A stretch of DNA of 7,293 nucleotides, taken from contig JAQSXM010000167.1 of the NCBI GenBank assembly GCA_029256645.1, positions 1 through 7,293 on the forward strand. The letters are read 5' to 3'. A model generated the notes under the pieces. It did not search any database, was not told where the DNA came from, and was given only the letters and a program-made list of their open reading frames with translations. Shown piece after piece: positions 1 through 7,293 of this stretch. Within the stretch, counting starts at the first letter, position 1. Each line of letters starts with the position of its first letter. The DNA is from Sporomusa sp. (lineage in GTDB: Bacteria; Bacillota_C; Negativicutes; Sporomusales; Sporomusaceae). Position numbers and translations under genes: made by a program.

Positions 1-138
1 CGACCAATACCGGTGAAGCACTTTTATTTTCCAGGGACATTTCCAAAACAAGAATACTTCTTCCGCCAAAACCAACTCCTTGTCATCGTATTTCAAATAT
101 CCTGAAGCTACAGAGATTCCAGCCTCCCCTCCTTTCAA
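1..138 (-). CDS. Possible start of riboswitch-controlled gene, cut by left edge, frame uncertain
   Basis: A promoter, riboswitch and terminator point at this stretch, so a gene is expected here, but I cannot define it. One frame is open from a TAA at 145-147 to the edge. Its candidate starts are TTG at 138 (no upstream Shine-Dalgarno) and TTG at 69 (AAGGAG at 76-81, 6-nt spacer). It contains the stretch SVASGYLKYDDKELVLAEE, then turns Trp/Cys-rich. A second frame is open from 82 to the edge, with an ATG at 40; it reads SILVLEMSLENKSASPVLV, which looks more protein-like at that end. The most natural reading would therefore switch frames near 60-70. That suggests either a late start at 40 or a frameshifted remnant. 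I assign no product. The very purine-rich tract at 121-135 resembles a ribosome binding site, but no ATG, GTG or TTG follows within 5-13 nt. Confidence 0.25.
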   Translation of the reverse strand, partial: MKGGEAGISVASGYLKYDDKELVLAEEVFLFWKCPWKIKVLHRYWS

Positions 139-159
139 TAATGAAATTTTTTACAACAC

Positions 160-199
160 AAAAAAACCATCTGAACACTCTAAAAGATTGTCCAGACGG
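160..199 (-). terminator. Intrinsic terminator, expression platform of the ZTP riboswitch
   Basis: On the minus strand, CCGTCTGGACA (199-189) can pair with TGTTCAGATGG (177-167). This gives an 11-bp stem with two G-U wobbles and an 11-nt loop that can close further. Seven uridines follow directly (166-160). The 5' half of the stem is the same segment that forms the 3' pseudoknot strand of the upstream aptamer, so the two folds are mutually exclusive. In the known ZTP mechanism, ligand binding protects the pseudoknot and prevents terminator formation. Transcription of the gene to the left should therefore be ON when ZMP/ZTP accumulates. Confidence 0.9.
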
Positions 200-262
200 T
201 CGACTTTTCTTACCCAATTTGCACTTCATGTGGTGAACTCCACTTATCCGTCAGTCGTGCAA
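190..262 (-). promoter_or_regulatory. ZTP (pfl motif) riboswitch aptamer
   Basis: This RNA element senses the purine intermediate ZMP (AICAR) and its triphosphate ZTP, which build up when 10-formyl-tetrahydrofolate is short. Read on the minus strand, P1 is TTGCAC (262-257) paired with GTGCAA (224-219). The conserved GACTGACGGA follows P1 (256-247). P2 is GTGG/CCAC (243-240 with 233-230) with a 6-nt loop, followed by ATGAAG. A short linker leads to the 3' domain GTCGACCGTCTGGAC (204-190). The internal-loop strand GACGG (252-248) is perfectly complementary to CCGTC (199-195), giving the diagnostic pseudoknot. The order, spacing and conserved bases match the family as I remember it, particularly the Fusobacterium aptamer. 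Family members usually precede purine or folate/one-carbon genes. A consensus promoter lies just upstream and a terminator overlaps the 3' end, so the switch is complete. Confidence 0.93.
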
Positions 263-285
263 TTGATTTATTCTATTATGTGAAG

Positions 286-315
286 ATTATAACACATTGC
301 AGTTTTCCTTGTCAA
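286..315 (-). promoter_or_regulatory. Consensus sigma-A promoter for the riboswitch transcript
   Basis: On the minus strand there is a perfect -35 box TTGACA (315-310) and a perfect -10 box TATAAT (291-286), separated by 18 bp. A TGT directly before the -10 box adds an extended -10 element. Transcription should begin near 279. That places the riboswitch aptamer about 17 nt into the leader and the terminator at the end of a leader of roughly 120 nt. The strength of this promoter fits a transcript whose output is set by attenuation rather than by initiation. Confidence 0.9.
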
Positions 316-423: not shown

Positions 424-927
424 TTATACTTTTTCAACAGTTCTCTCTATTTTTTCCAGACGGGCCATTAGTTGATTCATAAATTCATCCTGATGCACCA
501 AGTGTGCCATAATAACCTCTATTTCTTCTGCCGATTTTTTGTTAATCTGATAATCCTGTTCAGCCATTACGCGATCCTTTTCAGCCTGTCTGTTTTGACT
601 CATCATTACTACCGGGCCAGTATAGGCGGCCTGGAAGCTTAACACAAGATTAAGCAAAATAAATGGATACGGGTCCCAGGCATTAAAATAATCAGGGTCA
701 AAGACTTTCATATAGACCAAATAGGCGTTAACTCCCATCCAAACTGCAATAATGACACTTTGGCAAATAATGAACGGCCAACTGCCGACCACCTTTGCTA
801 CATAGTCAGCAACACGCTGACCACAGGTCTGTTGTTCATGAAATTCACGGTAAACATTTCTTACAAGATGTTCTTTAACTCTATACCTGGCTGCTGGTCC
901 AAAGTTTGGCAGATCTTGCTTATTCAT
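424..927 (-). CDS. DUF1003 family membrane protein
   Basis: This 167-residue protein belongs to the DUF1003 family of small integral membrane proteins, whose function is unknown. A hydrophilic N-terminus (about 1-40) is followed by QRVADYVAKVVGSWPFI, which leads into transmembrane helix 1 (about 50-72). Then comes the family signature WDPYPFILLNLVLSFQAAYT (about 84-103), which forms helix 2. The conserved cytosolic SQNRQAEKDR follows at 110-119. The C-terminus (about 130-167) is charged, with heptad-like spacing that suggests a coiled coil. I chose the ATG at 927 because AAAAGGAG (936-943) sits 8 nt upstream. The alternative TTG at 969 would add 14 residues and has no such site. The gene is separated from the chemotaxis genes by a long hairpin and may be a separate unit. 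No link to chemotaxis is evident beyond adjacency. The family call is confident; no enzymatic role should be inferred. Confidence 0.9.
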   Translation of the reverse strand: MNKQDLPNFGPAARYRVKEHLVRNVYREFHEQQTCGQRVADYVAKVVGSWPFIICQSVIIAVWMGVNAYLVYMKVFDPDYFNAWDPYPFILLNLVLSFQAAYTGPVVMMSQNRQAEKDRVMAEQDYQINKKSAEEIEVIMAHLVHQDEFMNQLMARLEKIERTVEKV

Positions 928-935
928 GCAGATTA

Positions 936-943
936 CTCCTTTT
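936..943 (-). promoter_or_regulatory. Ribosome binding site fixing the DUF1003 start
   Basis: AAAAGGAG on the minus strand lies 8 nt before the ATG at 927. It decides in favour of that start over the upstream in-frame TTG at 969. Confidence 0.85.
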
Positions 944-972
944 GACGGCTTTTTAATCTTCAAATTCAATTA

Positions 973-1024
973 AGAGAAAGTATCCATAACTTGCCTATAG
1001 GCTTAAGTTATGGATACTTTCTCT
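973..1024. repeat. Perfect 20-bp inverted repeat, possible terminator or attenuator hairpin
   Basis: Bases 973-992 are exactly complementary to 1005-1024. The spacer (993-1004) begins with its own palindrome, GCCTATAGGC, so an RNA could fold into one nearly continuous hairpin with a TATA tip. On the minus strand it lies 57 nt after the stop of the small membrane protein gene and 45 nt before the DUF1003 start. It could end the che transcript or form part of the DUF1003 leader. The stem is AT-rich and is followed on the minus strand by TTAATTGAATTTG rather than a clean U-tract, so it is not a typical intrinsic terminator. A small palindromic repeat element or a protein-binding palindrome are alternatives. 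Confidence 0.75.
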
Positions 1025-1081
1025 CCGGATTGCTTGTATTCCTCTATGAACTAAACTAAGATGCGTCTTTAATAACCACCG

Positions 1082-1570
1082 CTAGAATTTCTTTTTGAGC
1101 ATTATTTGATAATCATTGTTGGAATCTGATGGATTTCGTTTAATTTCAATCCACTTTTTATTCTCTTCATCAATTTCAACGTGGACTACCCCTTTTCTCA
1201 CATTCACTCCCGGCATGAGCTCAAAGCTTTTTTTCTCCTCTTTTTGTATGGTGTATGTATGGTTGGATAGATTAGGAGGGTTATTATCCGTAATATCAAA
1301 TTTTTTAACAGGAATATGCTGTGACTCCATTGTCTCTGCTTTCGGCTTTGGCAGACTGGTATCAGAAACAACAGGTTCAGGATTGCTATGGCCTTGCTCC
1401 TTGTTGACAGGGGGCACTAGGGCTTCTTCCGGTCTGGCACGGGCTGGTTCCGCCGTTGGCGTTGGTGCTGCAGAAAAATAATAATGTTTTACCGCCCAGC
1501 CAAGCAACAGCAAAATACTAAAAATAATTACTAAAACCATTGGTTGATTTCTCAGTTTGCATCCCCCCAT
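1082..1570 (-). CDS. Unrecognised small membrane-anchored protein at the end of the che operon
   Basis: I do not recognise this 162-residue protein. A short basic N-terminus (K5, R7) precedes one hydrophobic segment (about 11-27, MVLVIIFSILLLLGWAV), consistent with a signal anchor that leaves the rest outside the cytoplasm. A low-complexity linker rich in Pro, Ala and Glu follows (about 35-80). A compact C-terminal part (about 85-162) has alternating strand-like patterns such as KGVVHVEIDEENKKWIEIKR and ends in a basic tail. C4 is not in a lipobox: it precedes the hydrophobic stretch. The gene is 72 nt downstream of cheB on the same strand and is probably cotranscribed. Its start is weak. The ATG at 1570 has only GTGGA directly abutting it, and an in-frame TAG lies just upstream. 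A downstream ATG (about 1540) would begin right at the hydrophobic segment. A role in chemotaxis is suggested only by position. Confidence 0.75.
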   Translation of the reverse strand: MGGCKLRNQPMVLVIIFSILLLLGWAVKHYYFSAAPTPTAEPARARPEEALVPPVNKEQGHSNPEPVVSDTSLPKPKAETMESQHIPVKKFDITDNNPPNLSNHTYTIQKEEKKSFELMPGVNVRKGVVHVEIDEENKKWIEIKRNPSDSNNDYQIMLKKKF

Positions 1571-1577
1571 TCCACTG

Positions 1578-1606
1578 CGAAGCTAAATTATGCAATATTT
1601 GCTTCG
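1578..1606 (-). promoter_or_regulatory. Hairpin directly upstream of the small membrane protein start
   Basis: CGAAGC-AAAT (minus strand, 1606-1597) can pair with ATTT-A-GCTTCG (1588-1578). This gives a 10-bp stem with one bulged base and an 8-nt loop. It ends 7 nt before the ATG at 1570, where a ribosome binding site would normally be. It may limit translation of this last gene of the operon, or it may be an RNA-processing or stability element. There is no U-tract, so it is not an intrinsic terminator. Confidence 0.45.
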
Positions 1607-1642
1607 ACAGCAGGGGACTAATTCCCTTTACACCAGCATTCC

Positions 1643-2671
1643 TTACATCAGTGAGTATATCTTCCGGGCAATCATGGTTAACGGCACTTGTTCCTGGACA
1701 GCACCGATTTCCAAAGCTGCCTTAGGCATCCCATAAACAATTGATGAACGCTCATCTTGCCCGATCGTGCGCGCTCCTGCCTTGCGGAGAGCGAGTAAAC
1801 CATTGGCCCCGTCATTCCCCATTCCGGTTAGAATTACGCCAATTGCATTCCTGCCCACAATATTAGCGACTGAATTAAACAGGACGTCAACCGATGGACA
1901 ATGTCCATTGACTTTGTCACCGCGGAAACATTCGACCATATAATCATTATTGAGTCGTTTAATACGCATATGATGATCCCCGGGAGCAATTAGCACCCGG
2001 CCTGGCAGAATCAAATCACCTGTTCGGGCTTCTTTGACCTGAACAGCACACGTGTGATTCAAACGGTTTGCATACATAGCGGTAAAGACTGGGGGCATAT
2101 GTTGCACAATAACTGTCCCCGGCATGTTTGCAGAGAACCCTTTAAGCACGGTATCAATCGCCTCAGTTCCACCAGTTGATGCTCCAATAGTAATAATAAG
2201 GTTTCGTTTCACAGCCCCTTGCCCGCTTGGGACAGGCGGCCTGGACCCGGCATTACCGGCCAGAGGTCTGACTTTCGCCATTGAAGCCACTTTAATTTTA
2301 ACTATAAGTTCACTGACCAGGCTGTCCTGACTACGTCCACTACTAACATCCGGCTTAGTAACAAAATCAACAGCTCCGGCATTTAAAGCATCGAATACTG
2401 TTTCGCTCACAGCACTTACCATGATGACAGGTATTGGGTATTGAGGCATTAGCCTCTTCAAAAATTCAATACCGTTCATACGCGGCATCTCGACATCCAG
2501 GGTCATTACATCAGGTTCAAGTTCCAGTATTTTGTCTCTGGCCATATAAGGATCTGCAGCAGTTGCCACAACCTCAATGGACGGGTCCTGTGCAATTGCC
2601 CTGGCCAATGTTTCCCGAAACACAATCGAATCATCTACCACCAAAACCCTGATCTTTTTCCTAGCGGACAT
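1643..2671 (-). CDS. cheB: Protein-glutamate methylesterase/glutamine deamidase CheB
   Basis: CheB demethylates receptor glutamates and deamidates receptor glutamines, resetting receptor activity after CheA phosphorylates it. Numbering from the ATG at 2671 (342 residues), the N-terminal receiver domain spans about 5-120. It has the acidic pocket D13/D14, phospho-acceptor D59 (LDVEMPRMNG), S86 and K106 (TKPD). A linker of about 30 residues leads to the methylesterase domain (about 157-342), whose catalytic triad is S165 (GASTGGTEAI), H191 (QHMPP) and D287 (GMGNDGANG). All key residues are intact. An in-frame GTG at 2677 overlaps the cheR stop (TAGTG). However, the site AAAGGGA (2680-2686) is only 2 nt from GTG and 8 nt from the ATG at 2671, so the ATG is the better start. 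Location is cytoplasmic, and translation is probably coupled to cheR. Confidence 0.97.
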   Translation of the reverse strand: MSARKKIRVLVVDDSIVFRETLARAIAQDPSIEVVATAADPYMARDKILELEPDVMTLDVEMPRMNGIEFLKRLMPQYPIPVIMVSAVSETVFDALNAGAVDFVTKPDVSSGRSQDSLVSELIVKIKVASMAKVRPLAGNAGSRPPVPSGQGAVKRNLIITIGASTGGTEAIDTVLKGFSANMPGTVIVQHMPPVFTAMYANRLNHTCAVQVKEARTGDLILPGRVLIAPGDHHMRIKRLNNDYMVECFRGDKVNGHCPSVDVLFNSVANIVGRNAIGVILTGMGNDGANGLLALRKAGARTIGQDERSSIVYGMPKAALEIGAVQEQVPLTMIARKIYSLM

Positions 2672-2676
2672 ATACA

Positions 2677-3492
2677 CTATCCCTTTCTATACACAGCCGG
2701 TGCTATAAATTTATACTTGCTCTCATGACGATTTATAGATTCAGAGTGACCAATAAACAAGTAACCCCCGGGTTCCATGTGGTCATAAAATCGATTGACC
2801 AATTCCTGCTTTGTTTCGGTGTCAAAATAGATCATGACATTACGGCAAAAAATAATATGGAATTTCTTTTTAAAGGGAAAAACCAGATTCATCAGATTAA
2901 AGCGCCGAAATATAACCTCGTTCCGCACTTTCTCAGTAATAATGCTGCAGTCATCGTCAAGTTTACGAAAATATTTTGTCCGCCACCCGCCTGGGAGAGT
3001 TTCTAGCTGGCTATTGGCATAGACAGCTTTTTGCGCTCTTTCTAAAGCCGCTGCGGACAGGTCTGTTGCCAGGATTTTGGTGTCCCAGCGCCATTTCTCC
3101 GCTCCAAAATAGGAGTCAACCGTCATTGCCAGGGTGTATGGCTCTTCCCCGGTTGAACAGCCGGCACTCCATATCCGCAGATCACGATTTTTAGCTTCAG
3201 TCCCAGCCAGGTAAGGCAGTACATCACGCTCTAAAAGCTCGAAATGTTTCGGCTCACGCTGAAAATAAGTATGGTTTGTCGTGAGCTTATTTAACAAAAT
3301 TGTTCCGGCTTTACCAGTACGATCGCTTAATACATACTGTAAGTACTCTGAGAAATTGTCAAACCCACTCTGCACAATATAATTATGTAAGCGCCCCAGT
3401 ACCAAACTTCGTTTTTGCGATAAATTGATACCATAATTTTGCTTGATAAACTGAACCAGCTCGCTAAATTCCTGATCACTAATCGCGTCCAT
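2677..3492 (-). CDS. cheR: Chemotaxis protein methyltransferase CheR
   Basis: CheR transfers methyl groups from S-adenosylmethionine to glutamates on the receptor signalling helices, opposing CheB in adaptation. Numbering from the ATG at 3492 (271 residues), the N-terminal all-alpha domain spans about 1-75 (ISDQEFSELVQFIKQNYGIN, then LLNKLTTNHTYFQREP). The Rossmann-like SAM domain follows, with WSAGCSTGEEPYT (108-120), LATDLS (141-146) and FCRNVMIYF (215-223). The inserted beta-subdomain that docks on receptor tails in some species falls around 165-195. The family length and motifs are complete. Two starts are possible: the ATG at 3501 has AAAGG abutting it with no spacer, while the ATG at 3492 has AAAGG (3502-3506) at 9 nt. 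I prefer 3492. The stop TAG at 2677-2679 lies within the cheB initiation region. Confidence 0.97.
   Translation of the reverse strand: MDAISDQEFSELVQFIKQNYGINLSQKRSLVLGRLHNYIVQSGFDNFSEYLQYVLSDRTGKAGTILLNKLTTNHTYFQREPKHFELLERDVLPYLAGTEAKNRDLRIWSAGCSTGEEPYTLAMTVDSYFGAEKWRWDTKILATDLSAAALERAQKAVYANSQLETLPGGWRTKYFRKLDDDCSIITEKVRNEVIFRRFNLMNLVFPFKKKFHIIFCRNVMIYFDTETKQELVNRFYDHMEPGGYLFIGHSESINRHESKYKFIAPAVYRKG
2680..2686 (-). promoter_or_regulatory. Ribosome binding site fixing the cheB start
   Basis: AAAGGGA lies inside the last codons of cheR, 8 nt before the ATG at 2671 and only 2 nt before the alternative GTG at 2677. It supports the ATG and suggests that cheB translation is coupled to termination of cheR. 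Confidence 0.75.
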
Positions 3493-3501
3493 GGGCTCCA
3501 T

Positions 3502-3506
3502 CCTTT
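3502..3506 (-). promoter_or_regulatory. Ribosome binding site favouring the second cheR ATG
   Basis: AAAGG directly abuts the first ATG (3501) but is 9 nt from the second (3492). The extended AAAGGATGGAG also offers GGAG. The second ATG is therefore the more likely start. Confidence 0.6.
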
Positions 3507-3547
3507 AAAGCAAACAAAGAGAGCTATCGCTCCCCTTGCTAACTACT

Positions 3548-5266
3548 CTAATACTTGCCAAACTCGTTGTCATCAAGCAGTATTTTCATCTTCGGCTGTA
3601 TTCCCGTTTTACCGTCCTGTTGAAACCCGTTTTTTTTCTGCTCAATCATAGCTTCAATCGCCCGTACAACCTCCGGATTCAGATTCAAAGCATTACTACC
3701 GTTTAAATCCCGGCTCATTTGTTTTAACTTGAATTTCCGGACATGTTCACGCATTACGTCTGCTTGACCTGAGAGTTCTTCACTGGCGGCAGCACTTTCC
3801 TCAGCTGTTGCCGAGTTGGTCTGTACAACTTGTGATACCTGACCAATGGCCTGATTTACCTGTGCCAGCGCTGTAGCCTGTTCATTAGAAGCAGCCGCGA
3901 TATCGCCCACCAATTCCGCAGCCTTGGAAACACCACCTACAATGCCGTTTAGTGCTGCTGCAGTTTCATTGGCGATTTTTGTTCCCACATCTACTTTTTT
4001 AATCGAACCCTCAATCATAGCCGTCGTTTCTTTGGCAGCATTGGCGCTTCTGGCGGCCAGATTCCGTACCTCTTCAGCCACAACAGCAAATCCTTTACCG
4101 TGTTGTCCTGCTCTAGCCGCTTCAACAGCAGCATTCAGCGCCAAAATGTTCGTTTGAAAGGCAATCTCATCAATTACCTTGATAATCTTAGAGATATTGG
4201 CAGATGACTCATTGATCTCATCCATAGCCTTTATCATTTGTATCATTTGACTGTTCCCGGCAATGGCTTGCTCCTTAGCTTCAATTGCCAGATCATTTGC
4301 CTGGTTGGCATTAACTGCATTTAGCTTGGTTTGCGTGGCTACTTGTGTCATTGAGGCAGTAATCTCTTCAATAGAGCTGGCTTGCTCTGTTGAGCCTTGT
4401 GATAACACCTCGCCTGAAGCCGCTATTTGGCGTGCACCGGCTGCTACCTGTTCTGTAGCCTGATTAATACTGGTCATCGTTATATTAAGATTATCCGACA
4501 TTGTGTTAAAAGCCTGTGCCAATACCCCTATTTCATCCTTTGTCGTAATGTTGACAGCAACATTTAGATCCCCAGTAGCAATCTTTCCTGCCGCTTCTAC
4601 AACTATATTAATCGGCCCTGAGATTATTCTTGCAATATACAGGCCAAACCCCATCGCAATCACAACACTGATAACGATAAAGGTAATCATAATCATCATT
4701 GCCTGATCAGCAGCGGCTGTGTTCGCAGCTGCTTTTTCTTTCGCCATTTGCACTTTCATTTGGGTCAGCTTATCAAGTGTATCACTAAATATCCCGGCGA
4801 TTCGGACACCTTCGGTCTGCAGCAATTGATTAACCTGATCATTTTGACCAGCCTGAAGCATCAAAAACAGTTTTTTGGTATAGGGTTCATATTCAGCAAT
4901 GGCACCCTCAAGCGCTTTATGCAATTTTACCCCTTCATCGCTGACCAGGGTTTTGCCAATCTTATCTGTTTCTTCTTTCATAGTGGTGATCGATTCGTTA
5001 AATTTCTTTATATTCTCGGCCTGAACCCTAAGGTCTTTGGTCGCCATGGCATCACGGAAATGTACACGCCCCCGTTGGTATGCCTCTGAAATATTTCCCA
5101 TCTGTTCCAATGGTATCGTAAAGTATTCATACAGCTTGGCATCTTCTTTTGCCAGGTTATTTAGATTGATTACCCCAACTGTACCTATGAGGGCTGCAAT
5201 CACAGTCACGCAGAGAAATGCACCAATTAGTTTTGAAGCCACTTTTAAATTTCGGAACCAATTCAT
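3548..5266 (-). CDS. Methyl-accepting chemotaxis protein (four-helix-bundle sensor)
   Basis: This 572-residue membrane receptor feeds the CheA/CheW complex encoded beside it. In order it has TM1 (about 13-33), an extracytoplasmic helical sensor of about 155 residues resembling the 4HB_MCP ligand-binding fold, TM2 (about 189-211), a HAMP domain (about 212-265) and the signalling coiled coil (about 270-515). The kinase-binding hairpin tip is [21 protein letters not shown] (368-387). Likely adaptation sites are the acidic/amide pairs in [16 protein letters not shown] (291-306) and [15 protein letters not shown] (487-500). A tail of about 57 residues follows the coiled coil and ends in NEFGKY. 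It does not carry the enterobacterial NWETF CheR tether. The start is clear: TGGAGG lies 7 nt before the ATG at 5266, and only 2 nt separate it from the cheW stop. The ligand cannot be read from the sequence. Confidence 0.97.
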
Positions 5267-5268
5267 CT

Positions 5269-5754
5269 TTATGCCTCCAGCCTATCCAATTCTTCATCGT
5301 TCAGCAACTTATCACAATCCAGAATTAGTTTTACATTATTGCCAACTTTACCAATTGCCCTGATATAACGCTGGTGGTACATGTTATTAACCTGCGGCGG
5401 AAGAACAATGTCCTGCTCAGCAATCACCAGGACTTCAGCCACAGTATCCACAATCAGGCCTACCGCAATATCCCTGATTTCCACGACAATAATGCAGGTC
5501 CGGTCATTATATTCTCTGAATGGCTTTTTAAACCGGCTTCTAACATCAATAACAGGGATAATTTTACCTCTTAGGTTGATAATACCTTTTACATACTCGG
5601 GAAGGTCAGGCACCTCGGTGACAACCTGCAGGCCGATAATTTCTGTAACATATCTGATTTCAATACCATATACTTCTTTATCTAACGCAAAAGTAAGAAA
5701 TTTTCCCTTCTGGGTATCTTCTTCAAAGTCTGAATCAACCACAAGTTCTGGCAT
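5269..5754 (-). CDS. cheW: Chemotaxis coupling protein CheW
   Basis: CheW is the cytoplasmic adaptor that joins receptor tips to the P5 domain of CheA in signalling arrays. The protein has 161 residues, the usual CheW length. A single CheW domain spans about 17-155, with [15 protein letters not shown] at its start and the hallmark [18 protein letters not shown] (55-72), including the conserved Arg in NLRG. The acidic N-terminus ([11 protein letters not shown]) and C-terminus ([10 protein letters not shown]) are short extensions. There is no receiver domain, so it is CheW and not CheV. The start at 5754 is supported by AAAGGTGG with a 6-nt spacer. It lies 67 nt after the cheA stop and 2 nt before mcp, which suggests that receptor and coupler are made together. 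Confidence 0.97.
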
Positions 5755-5821
5755 AACAAGCCACCTTTCGTATTTTCAGAAGGCTTTGTAAGCTTAATAC
5801 TGGCCATTAACACTTTTGCCC

Positions 5822-7293
5822 CTACAACAGTCCGGCTACATCCAATATTAAACTAACACTGCCGTCTCCCAATAATGTGCATCCGGCAAGTCCCTGCTTC
5901 TTTTTGATATACCCTGGCAAAGCCTTGACAACCACTTGCTGCTGCCCTAGCAGTGAATCAACAAATAAACAGAGGCTGCAGCCATCTACCTCAACCATAA
6001 GCATGATTCCTTCATATAAATCTGTTTTACCTGCCTTAATCCCGAATTGTTCATGCAATCGCAGTACAGGATAGCACTGCCCCCTAATCATAAGCATTTC
6101 ATTATTATCAACATCTTTAATCAGGTTTTGGTCCTTCAACCGGAAAGATTCCTTGATCGAAATAATTGGCACAGTATAGATCGTATGACCAACGCTAACA
6201 ATCATGCCATCAATAATAGCCAGTGTGAGCGGGATTCTAATCGACATGGATGTACCCACTCCAGCCACACTGTCAACAGTGATTGCCCCCCCAATTGCTG
6301 TGATGTTCTGCGCTACGACATCCATACCCACACCACGTCCGGAAAACTCTGTTACAACTTCTTTAGTCGAAAATCCGGGATGCAGAATAAAAGCATATAC
6401 CTGTTTGTCTGTTAAAGTGCTATCTGCTTCTTCAATGAGGCCACGCTCGATTGCCTTATGCAGTATTTTTTCCCGGTTCAGCCCCCCGCCATCATCGTGT
6501 ACAATAATCCAAACATCACCGCCGGCATTTTTCGCTTCCAGCCGAATTTTCCCAATTGGGTGTTTTCCCTTGGCAATCCGTTCTTGCAATGACTCGATAC
6601 CATGATCAACCGCATTACGAATTAGGTGCATGAGTGGATCAGCTATGTTTTCAATTATATTTTTATCAACCTCGGTCTGCTCACCAATTATCTCCAGTTC
6701 AACCTGCTTATCCAGTTTGCGGGCCATATCTCTGACAATGCGCGTCATTTTATGAAAGGTCGCTGCTAACGGAATCATCCGGATTGACATGACAACATCC
6801 TGGAGCTCACCGGTAATTTTCCGTAACTGCCGCGCCGCTTTATAAAACTTATCCAGATTTAACCCTTGCAACTCAGGATTCTGTGTCACCATTGCTTCAG
6901 CGGTGACAAGCTCACCCACTAGATCCATGAGCATATCCATTTTTGTCACATTGACACTGATAAAACTTTGCTTGCCTCCCAGGCAGCGCTCATTATCAGC
7001 AGTTACATCCGGTAATCCGAAATCTGTCACCCCACAGGCACTAGGTTCTGATGGCAGTGGCCCGTCTAAATCAATGGTACGCTTTGGCAGTTGTTGGGTT
7101 ACAGCCAGTTTTTTTACTGTTTCCAGGGTAAATTCCTTTAAAAACATGGTCTGAGCAAAAAAAGCCTCCATTGTCTCCAGGGGATATGAGGTAACAAAGA
7201 GTATTTTAAAGCCTTCAGTTTTGATTATCTCCGCAGTGTCATCATTCTCCAGAATGTCAGGAGGAAAATACTCCATATGTTGAGAAAAATCGC
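5822..7293 (-). CDS. cheA: Chemotaxis histidine kinase CheA, 5' end beyond window
   Basis: CheA is the cytoplasmic kinase that autophosphorylates and passes phosphate to CheY and CheB. The frame is open through the right edge (codons before the ATG at 7276 read DFSQH), so that ATG is internal. About 490 C-terminal residues are visible and the P1 phosphotransfer domain is missing. Numbering from the internal ATG, a small unit at about 15-57 (GFKILFVTSYPLETMEAFFAQTMFLKE) may be a P2-like or linker domain. P3 dimerisation spans about 105-165. P4 ATPase spans about 166-350, with N box LMHLIRNAVDHGIE (215-228), DDGGGLN (261-267), F box HPGFST (299-304) and GRGVGMDVV (313-321). P5, the CheW-like regulatory domain, spans about 352-484. 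The DDGGGLN box has Gly where Arg is usual (DDGRGLD). The gene heads the visible operon; its promoter is outside. Confidence 0.96.
   Translation of the reverse strand, partial: DFSQHMEYFPPDILENDDTAEIIKTEGFKILFVTSYPLETMEAFFAQTMFLKEFTLETVKKLAVTQQLPKRTIDLDGPLPSEPSACGVTDFGLPDVTADNERCLGGKQSFISVNVTKMDMLMDLVGELVTAEAMVTQNPELQGLNLDKFYKAARQLRKITGELQDVVMSIRMIPLAATFHKMTRIVRDMARKLDKQVELEIIGEQTEVDKNIIENIADPLMHLIRNAVDHGIESLQERIAKGKHPIGKIRLEAKNAGGDVWIIVHDDGGGLNREKILHKAIERGLIEEADSTLTDKQVYAFILHPGFSTKEVVTEFSGRGVGMDVVAQNITAIGGAITVDSVAGVGTSMSIRIPLTLAIIDGMIVSVGHTIYTVPIISIKESFRLKDQNLIKDVDNNEMLMIRGQCYPVLRLHEQFGIKAGKTDLYEGIMLMVEVDGCSLCLFVDSLLGQQQVVVKALPGYIKKKQGLAGCTLLGDGSVSLILDVAGLL

Follow-up and report, generated by a model that had tools for sequence, protein, structure and literature searches.

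The window, by which we mean the whole 7,293-nt stretch of DNA that was analysed, carries at 424-7291 (-) a chemotaxis cluster encoding CheA (cut by the window edge), CheW, an MCP, CheR and CheB, followed by a small protein (1082-1570) and a DUF1003 protein (424-969). All of these genes lie upstream of a ZTP riboswitch and on its strand. No convincing family match was obtained for the small protein encoded at 1082-1570 (-). The DUF1003 protein is 77% identical to a relative in a soil Bacillota MAG, 73% to one in Sporomusa silvacetica, 71% to one in Anaerospora hongkongensis and 54% to one in a Binataceae MAG; S. silvacetica and A. hongkongensis belong to the Sporomusaceae, class Negativicutes, which makes this family the probable source of the window. 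No ZTP switch is present at any of the four loci to which the DUF1003 protein led, and the upstream synteny is not shared with genome G009, a relative discussed below, which carries different genes upstream of its ZTP switch.

Riboswitches of the ZTP class are sensors of a purine-synthesis alarm molecule, and the element at 315-160 (-) is a complete and ordinary member of the class, constituting no new one. The covariance-model search (cmscan against Rfam 15) matched RF01750 (ZMP-ZTP) on the minus strand at 268-183 over model positions 1-86 of 86, with 58.5 bits (E 7.1e-8) against a gathering cut-off of 39 bits, and this is the sole match at the gathering threshold in the whole window. The first-pass annotation, made from the letters alone, had read a complete ZTP riboswitch here, and its four parts (aptamer, promoter, pseudoknot and overlapping terminator) are all present. 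The consensus extended -10 promoter that it described is found at 315-286 (-), where TTGACA (315-310), an 18-base spacer with the extended TG, and TATAAT (291-286) match the sigma-70 consensus in 12 of 12 letters; the five other promoter-like matches in positions 1-1000 score 9. The pseudoknot of five pairs is likewise as described, with GACGG at 252-248 (-) being the exact complement of CCGTC at 199-195 (-).

The pseudoknot strand 199-195 doubles as part of the 5' arm of an intrinsic terminator (201-160, minus strand; -19.6 kcal/mol), so that the expression platform overlaps the aptamer. In the fold, arms 201-189 and 177-165 form 13 pairs with three further inner pairs, and seven T follow at 166-160; the 5' arm had been placed at 199-189, which was right in including the pseudoknot strand, and the fold moves its beginning to 201. 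A simple terminator pattern scan missed this terminator, which the fold shows. Folding of a growing transcript predicts a stem that is still short when the 3' end has reached 172 and is complete by 163. The stretch 285-140 folds moderately better than its shuffles (z -1.85; 9 of 200 shuffles equal or better) in a program that cannot represent the pseudoknot.

Comparison with related aptamers corroborates this architecture. The window aptamer was aligned with 37 from relatives, giving 38 sequences of which 36 are distinct, and among the distinct ones 95.6% of the cells at the 19 aptamer pairs are standard pairs, a share that drops to 34-42% if the partner column is shifted by one to three places. 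Changes on both sides occur at 13 of the 19 pairs. P2 is the least well kept helix (82.5% paired), for which alignment shifts account at least in part. All five pseudoknot pairs are formed in each of the 36 distinct aptamers, and two of the five show two-sided changes: the second pair is G-C in 20 sequences and A-U in 16, and the fourth is G-C in 35 and A-U in one. The exchange at the second pair indicates that GACGG/CCGUC in the window is a compensated version of GGCGG/CCGCC.

We are fairly sure that the element is a transcriptional ON switch for ZMP/ZTP, most likely serving a major facilitator (MFS) carrier of the SfMCT / oxalate-formate antiport group and perhaps also a formate-THF ligase. 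It is proposed that RNA polymerase would start a few bases downstream of 286 and that, when 10-formyl-tetrahydrofolate is short, bound ZMP/ZTP would hold P3 and the pseudoknot strand (about 204-190), which would block the terminator at 201-165 and let transcription continue; without ligand the stronger terminator would form and the transcript would end near 160. In the ON state the cell would take up more formate, or a related acid, and activate it to 10-formyl-THF. We infer ligand binding and the ON direction here by analogy, because the overlap of terminator and pseudoknot strands is that of the ZTP switch of Thermosinus carboxydivorans, an ON switch in which ligand binding favours the pseudoknot over the terminator (PMC7337938). 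T. carboxydivorans belongs to the Sporomusaceae, the family of the nearest named relatives of the window. The two elements share the aptamer, the pseudoknot between J1/2 and the P3 loop, and a terminator built from the P3/pseudoknot strand, whereas the window has GACGG/CCGUC instead of GGCGG/CCGCC and its probable target is a transporter. An OFF switch, in which ligand binding would promote termination, is predicted for a tandem ZTP pair at moeA in a review of tandem riboswitches (PMC9481103), but we regard it as highly improbable here, since the 5' arm of the terminator is the pseudoknot/P3 strand itself, making the bound aptamer and the terminator mutually exclusive, and the same strand overlap occurs in the T. 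carboxydivorans ON switch (PMC7337938).

The gene controlled by the ON switch lies outside the window; no gene start is found within the leader that extends past the terminator (158-1, minus strand). An edge-open minus-strand frame was rejected as a coding start in the leader; it has no Pfam or NCBIfam match, and indels relative to G009 shift its frame. When positions 1-300 (-) were compared with 100 relatives, matches were found in 30, and G009 was by far the best, being 78% identical across query bases 7-300 of 300 (E 7.5e-57). In G009 the conserved leader runs into an MFS carrier, which starts about 360 bases past the pseudoknot strand and is followed by fhs (formate-THF ligase). We infer the downstream gene of the window from this arrangement. 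With the NCBIfam models, the G009 carrier reaches 340.7 for SfMCT ("L-lactate MFS transporter"; cut-off 320) and falls below the cut-offs for oxalate/formate antiporters, and the substrate assignment is therefore left broad.

Matches to RF01750 above the cut-off were found in 121 of 150 relatives, and 53 ZTP loci were classed by the first recognised downstream gene using tblastn with eight reference proteins. That gene is the SfMCT-type carrier at 23 loci, PflB at 19, Fhs at four, PurH at two and Rex at two, with none recognised at three; locus L051 has only a carrier remnant, and at L044 the match is out of register. Eighteen of the 53 were chosen by their likeness to the window; the other 35 comprise the 30 best RF01750 scores and five more, and are thus not a random sample. 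Among these 35 the carrier is first at 10, PflB at 16, Fhs at three, PurH at two and Rex at one, with none at three, and the pseudoknot differs with the downstream gene: GGCGG accompanies PflB in 16 of 16, and GACGG, the version found in the window, accompanies the carrier in nine of 10. The split is not strict, since three PflB switches among the 18 likeness-picked loci also have GACGG. Published gene associations of ZTP riboswitches include purine and formyl-THF genes (PMC2864571), and a search of the open-access literature, with the gene lists of the 2015 ZTP riboswitch paper outside its scope, found no report joining a ZTP riboswitch with a major facilitator and formate. The switch is useful mainly as a pointer to a ZTP-controlled transporter branch with a pseudoknot version of its own.

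What speaks against the carrier as the target is that in relatives switches of the same type also precede fhs, Rex-like genes or a carrier remnant, along with the position of the gene outside the window and the lack of shared upstream synteny noted above. The switch might be intact while its original target has been lost, the carrier being deleted and read-through ending up in a different gene (a Rex-like repressor, for example) or in none. Genome G004 has an arrangement of this kind, where a degenerate hairpin comes after the ZTP switch, then what is left of the 3' end of the carrier, and then a Rex-like gene, and in S. silvacetica (G002) and G010 the next recognised gene after the ZTP switch is Rex-like. 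Such a loss is nevertheless rather unlikely in the window, whose leader is 78% identical to that of G009 right up to the window edge and which, as far as is visible, still has the half of the hairpin that has degenerated in G004.

The hairpin half in question lies at the very edge of the window. Positions 1-30 (+) look like the 3' half of a terminator, comprising its loop, its 3' arm and its T tract, and would belong to a putative small RNA gene that runs towards the ZTP switch, convergent to it. This reading is suggested by likeness to G009 and by the family evidence given below. On the plus strand 19 of the first 20 bases equal those of G009, and CTTTTATTTT follows. The 5' arm, the conserved 5' part GGYAAATCAAATAAACC and the promoter would fall beyond the window edge, and since the promoter is outside, the membership of 1-30 (+) in the family rests on a short match together with the likeness to G009. 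A promoter resembling TTGAAA-17-TATAAT accompanies the 5' part GGYAAATCAAATAAACC in G009 (11/12 letters) and in genome G005 (10/12). The hairpin sits between the ZTP terminator and the carrier in G009, and the same hairpin precedes a formate/nitrite channel gene in G005, the channel having been identified through a close copy (L076) that scores just under the family cut-off. The hairpin is tied to a conserved AGGGTTTATTTG stretch, which is present before nifH too.

A covariance model of the small RNA was built from six copies; run at E <= 0.1 against 250 genomes listed as relatives of G002, it yielded 83 places in 53 genomes, of which three (G064:C10:96825-96915, G115:C7:191-290 and G058:C10:85851-85880; E 0.014 to 0.046) were left out. 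The set that we analysed has 81 entries with one duplicate (L125 equals the first copy in L147), leaving 80 distinct copies; at 12 of 39 loci the copies come as a tandem of two. Of the 80 distinct copies, 76 have a nitrogenase gene within 1.5 kb, on the opposite strand and pointing away from the putative small RNA. This neighbour encodes the Fe protein in all but one of the 76, usually within 320 bases; seven of the 81 entries have the Fe-protein gene farther away, at 0.8-1.3 kb, with other short genes between. By automatic label the 81 entries comprise 74 Fe protein, one nitrogenase alpha and six "other", and two of the latter (L110 and L114) precede nifH. The four distinct copies without a nitrogenase gene are those of G009 (MFS carrier) and G005 (formate/nitrite channel), L162 (another gene) and L166 (a poor match).

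Taking a NifH-family match at E <= 1e-130 as the mark of a nitrogenase-bearing genome, the element occurs in 51 of 66 such genomes (50 without G038, whose sole match is poor) versus two of the 184 others, a contrast for which the P value of a Fisher test overstates the significance because related genomes are not independent. The NifH-bearing genomes without the element number 15 (G029, G031, G104, G110, G125, G137, G152, G153, G170, G185, G186, G198, G203, G213 and G242).

Several features place the putative small RNA on the strand opposite the nitrogenase gene. On this strand a promoter that agrees with the consensus in 10 or more of its 12 letters, typically TTGAAA-17-TATAAT, is present in 70 of the 81 entries; the distal copies of several tandem pairs are among the 11 that fall short. 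A 12-bp hairpin lies some 55-60 bases past the -10 element; in 58 of the 80 distinct copies 98.6% of its cells are paired, with two-sided changes at 10 of the 12 pairs. A T-rich tract follows the hairpin on the small RNA strand, with a mean of 8.2 T in 12 (minimum 5). Promoter, hairpin and T tract in this order make up the layout of a small RNA gene about 90-95 nt long. A motif of a sense-strand leader had also been considered; it was dropped because the conserved ATTATA..N17..TTTCAA, read from the opposite strand, gives TTGAAA-17-TATAAT. Some tens of bases past its terminator, the small RNA strand carries in many copies, as judged by eye, a CACCTCCTT-like stretch that is complementary to a Shine-Dalgarno sequence; a rough pattern counts 41 of 81.

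The hairpin is palindromic and so reads on both strands, and the one at the edge might not be a small RNA terminator of the plus strand; taken on the minus strand, it could be a leader or DNA operator for the downstream gene. In nearly every copy examined it stands 5' of a nitrogenase or transport gene, and a Shine-Dalgarno-like stretch upstream of it is visible by eye in many copies (41 of 81 by the same rough pattern, which also allows CCCCCTT and CCACCTT). We consider this leader or operator reading distinctly improbable. Promoters with at least 10 of 12 letters number 70 of 81 on the small RNA strand versus two of 81 on the other strand and two of 81 in mononucleotide shuffles, the T tract is likewise on the small RNA strand (8.2 versus 2.8 T in 12), and the hairpin arms change together at 10 of their 12 pairs.

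The putative nitrogenase-linked small RNA family is the novel part of this analysis. It had no Rfam family when 20 loci were searched on both strands at E <= 0.5, nor when the G009 and G005 loci were searched at E <= 5. Small RNAs of nitrogen fixation are known from Pseudomonas (NfiS/NfiR), Azotobacter (ArrF), Methanosarcina (sRNA154) and cyanobacteria (NsiR4/NsrR1) (PMC9170634). The putative family resembles these in being tied to nitrogenase or nitrogen regulation, and differs in being divergent from nifH/anfH in relatives of Sporomusa; the sequence comparison covered Rfam, without a match. In the open-access literature, searched by title and abstract, we found no nitrogen-fixation small RNA of Negativicutes, no nifH-linked small RNA of Firmicutes and no such RNA of Sporomusa. 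The putative gene, which covaries, has a promoter of its own and lies beside nitrogenase genes, would be a candidate for the regulation of nitrogen fixation in this group.

We tentatively suggest, as a possibility that we would not yet favour, that a nitrogenase-linked small RNA is convergent to the ZTP riboswitch at this locus. The read-through leader, complementary over the whole small RNA, would then sponge or silence it, and the small RNA would pair with the leader of the carrier mRNA. If true, such pairing would link one-carbon and purine stress to a regulator of nitrogen fixation.

The ZTP riboswitch of the window has one aptamer, whereas tandem ZTP, ZTP/THF and ZTP/glycine riboswitches (PMC9481103) combine two, with the same aptamer class. 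At least six tandem ZTP-ZTP pairs were seen in relatives (G010:C1:487200 and 487370; G022:C138; G017:C100; G049:C17; G027:C2; G059:C6), the one in G010 preceding a MoeA-like gene and the one in G022 an SfMCT-type carrier. The accessible portion of the tandem riboswitch review names ZTP/THF, ZTP/glycine and ZTP/ZTP and does not name ZTP with a molybdenum/tungsten cofactor riboswitch (PMC9481103). In S. silvacetica (L008, the same place as L063) a ZTP switch at 1583-1501 is followed by a molybdenum/tungsten cofactor riboswitch at 1441-1323 (-) (RF01055, 65.5 bits) and then by a Rex-like gene.
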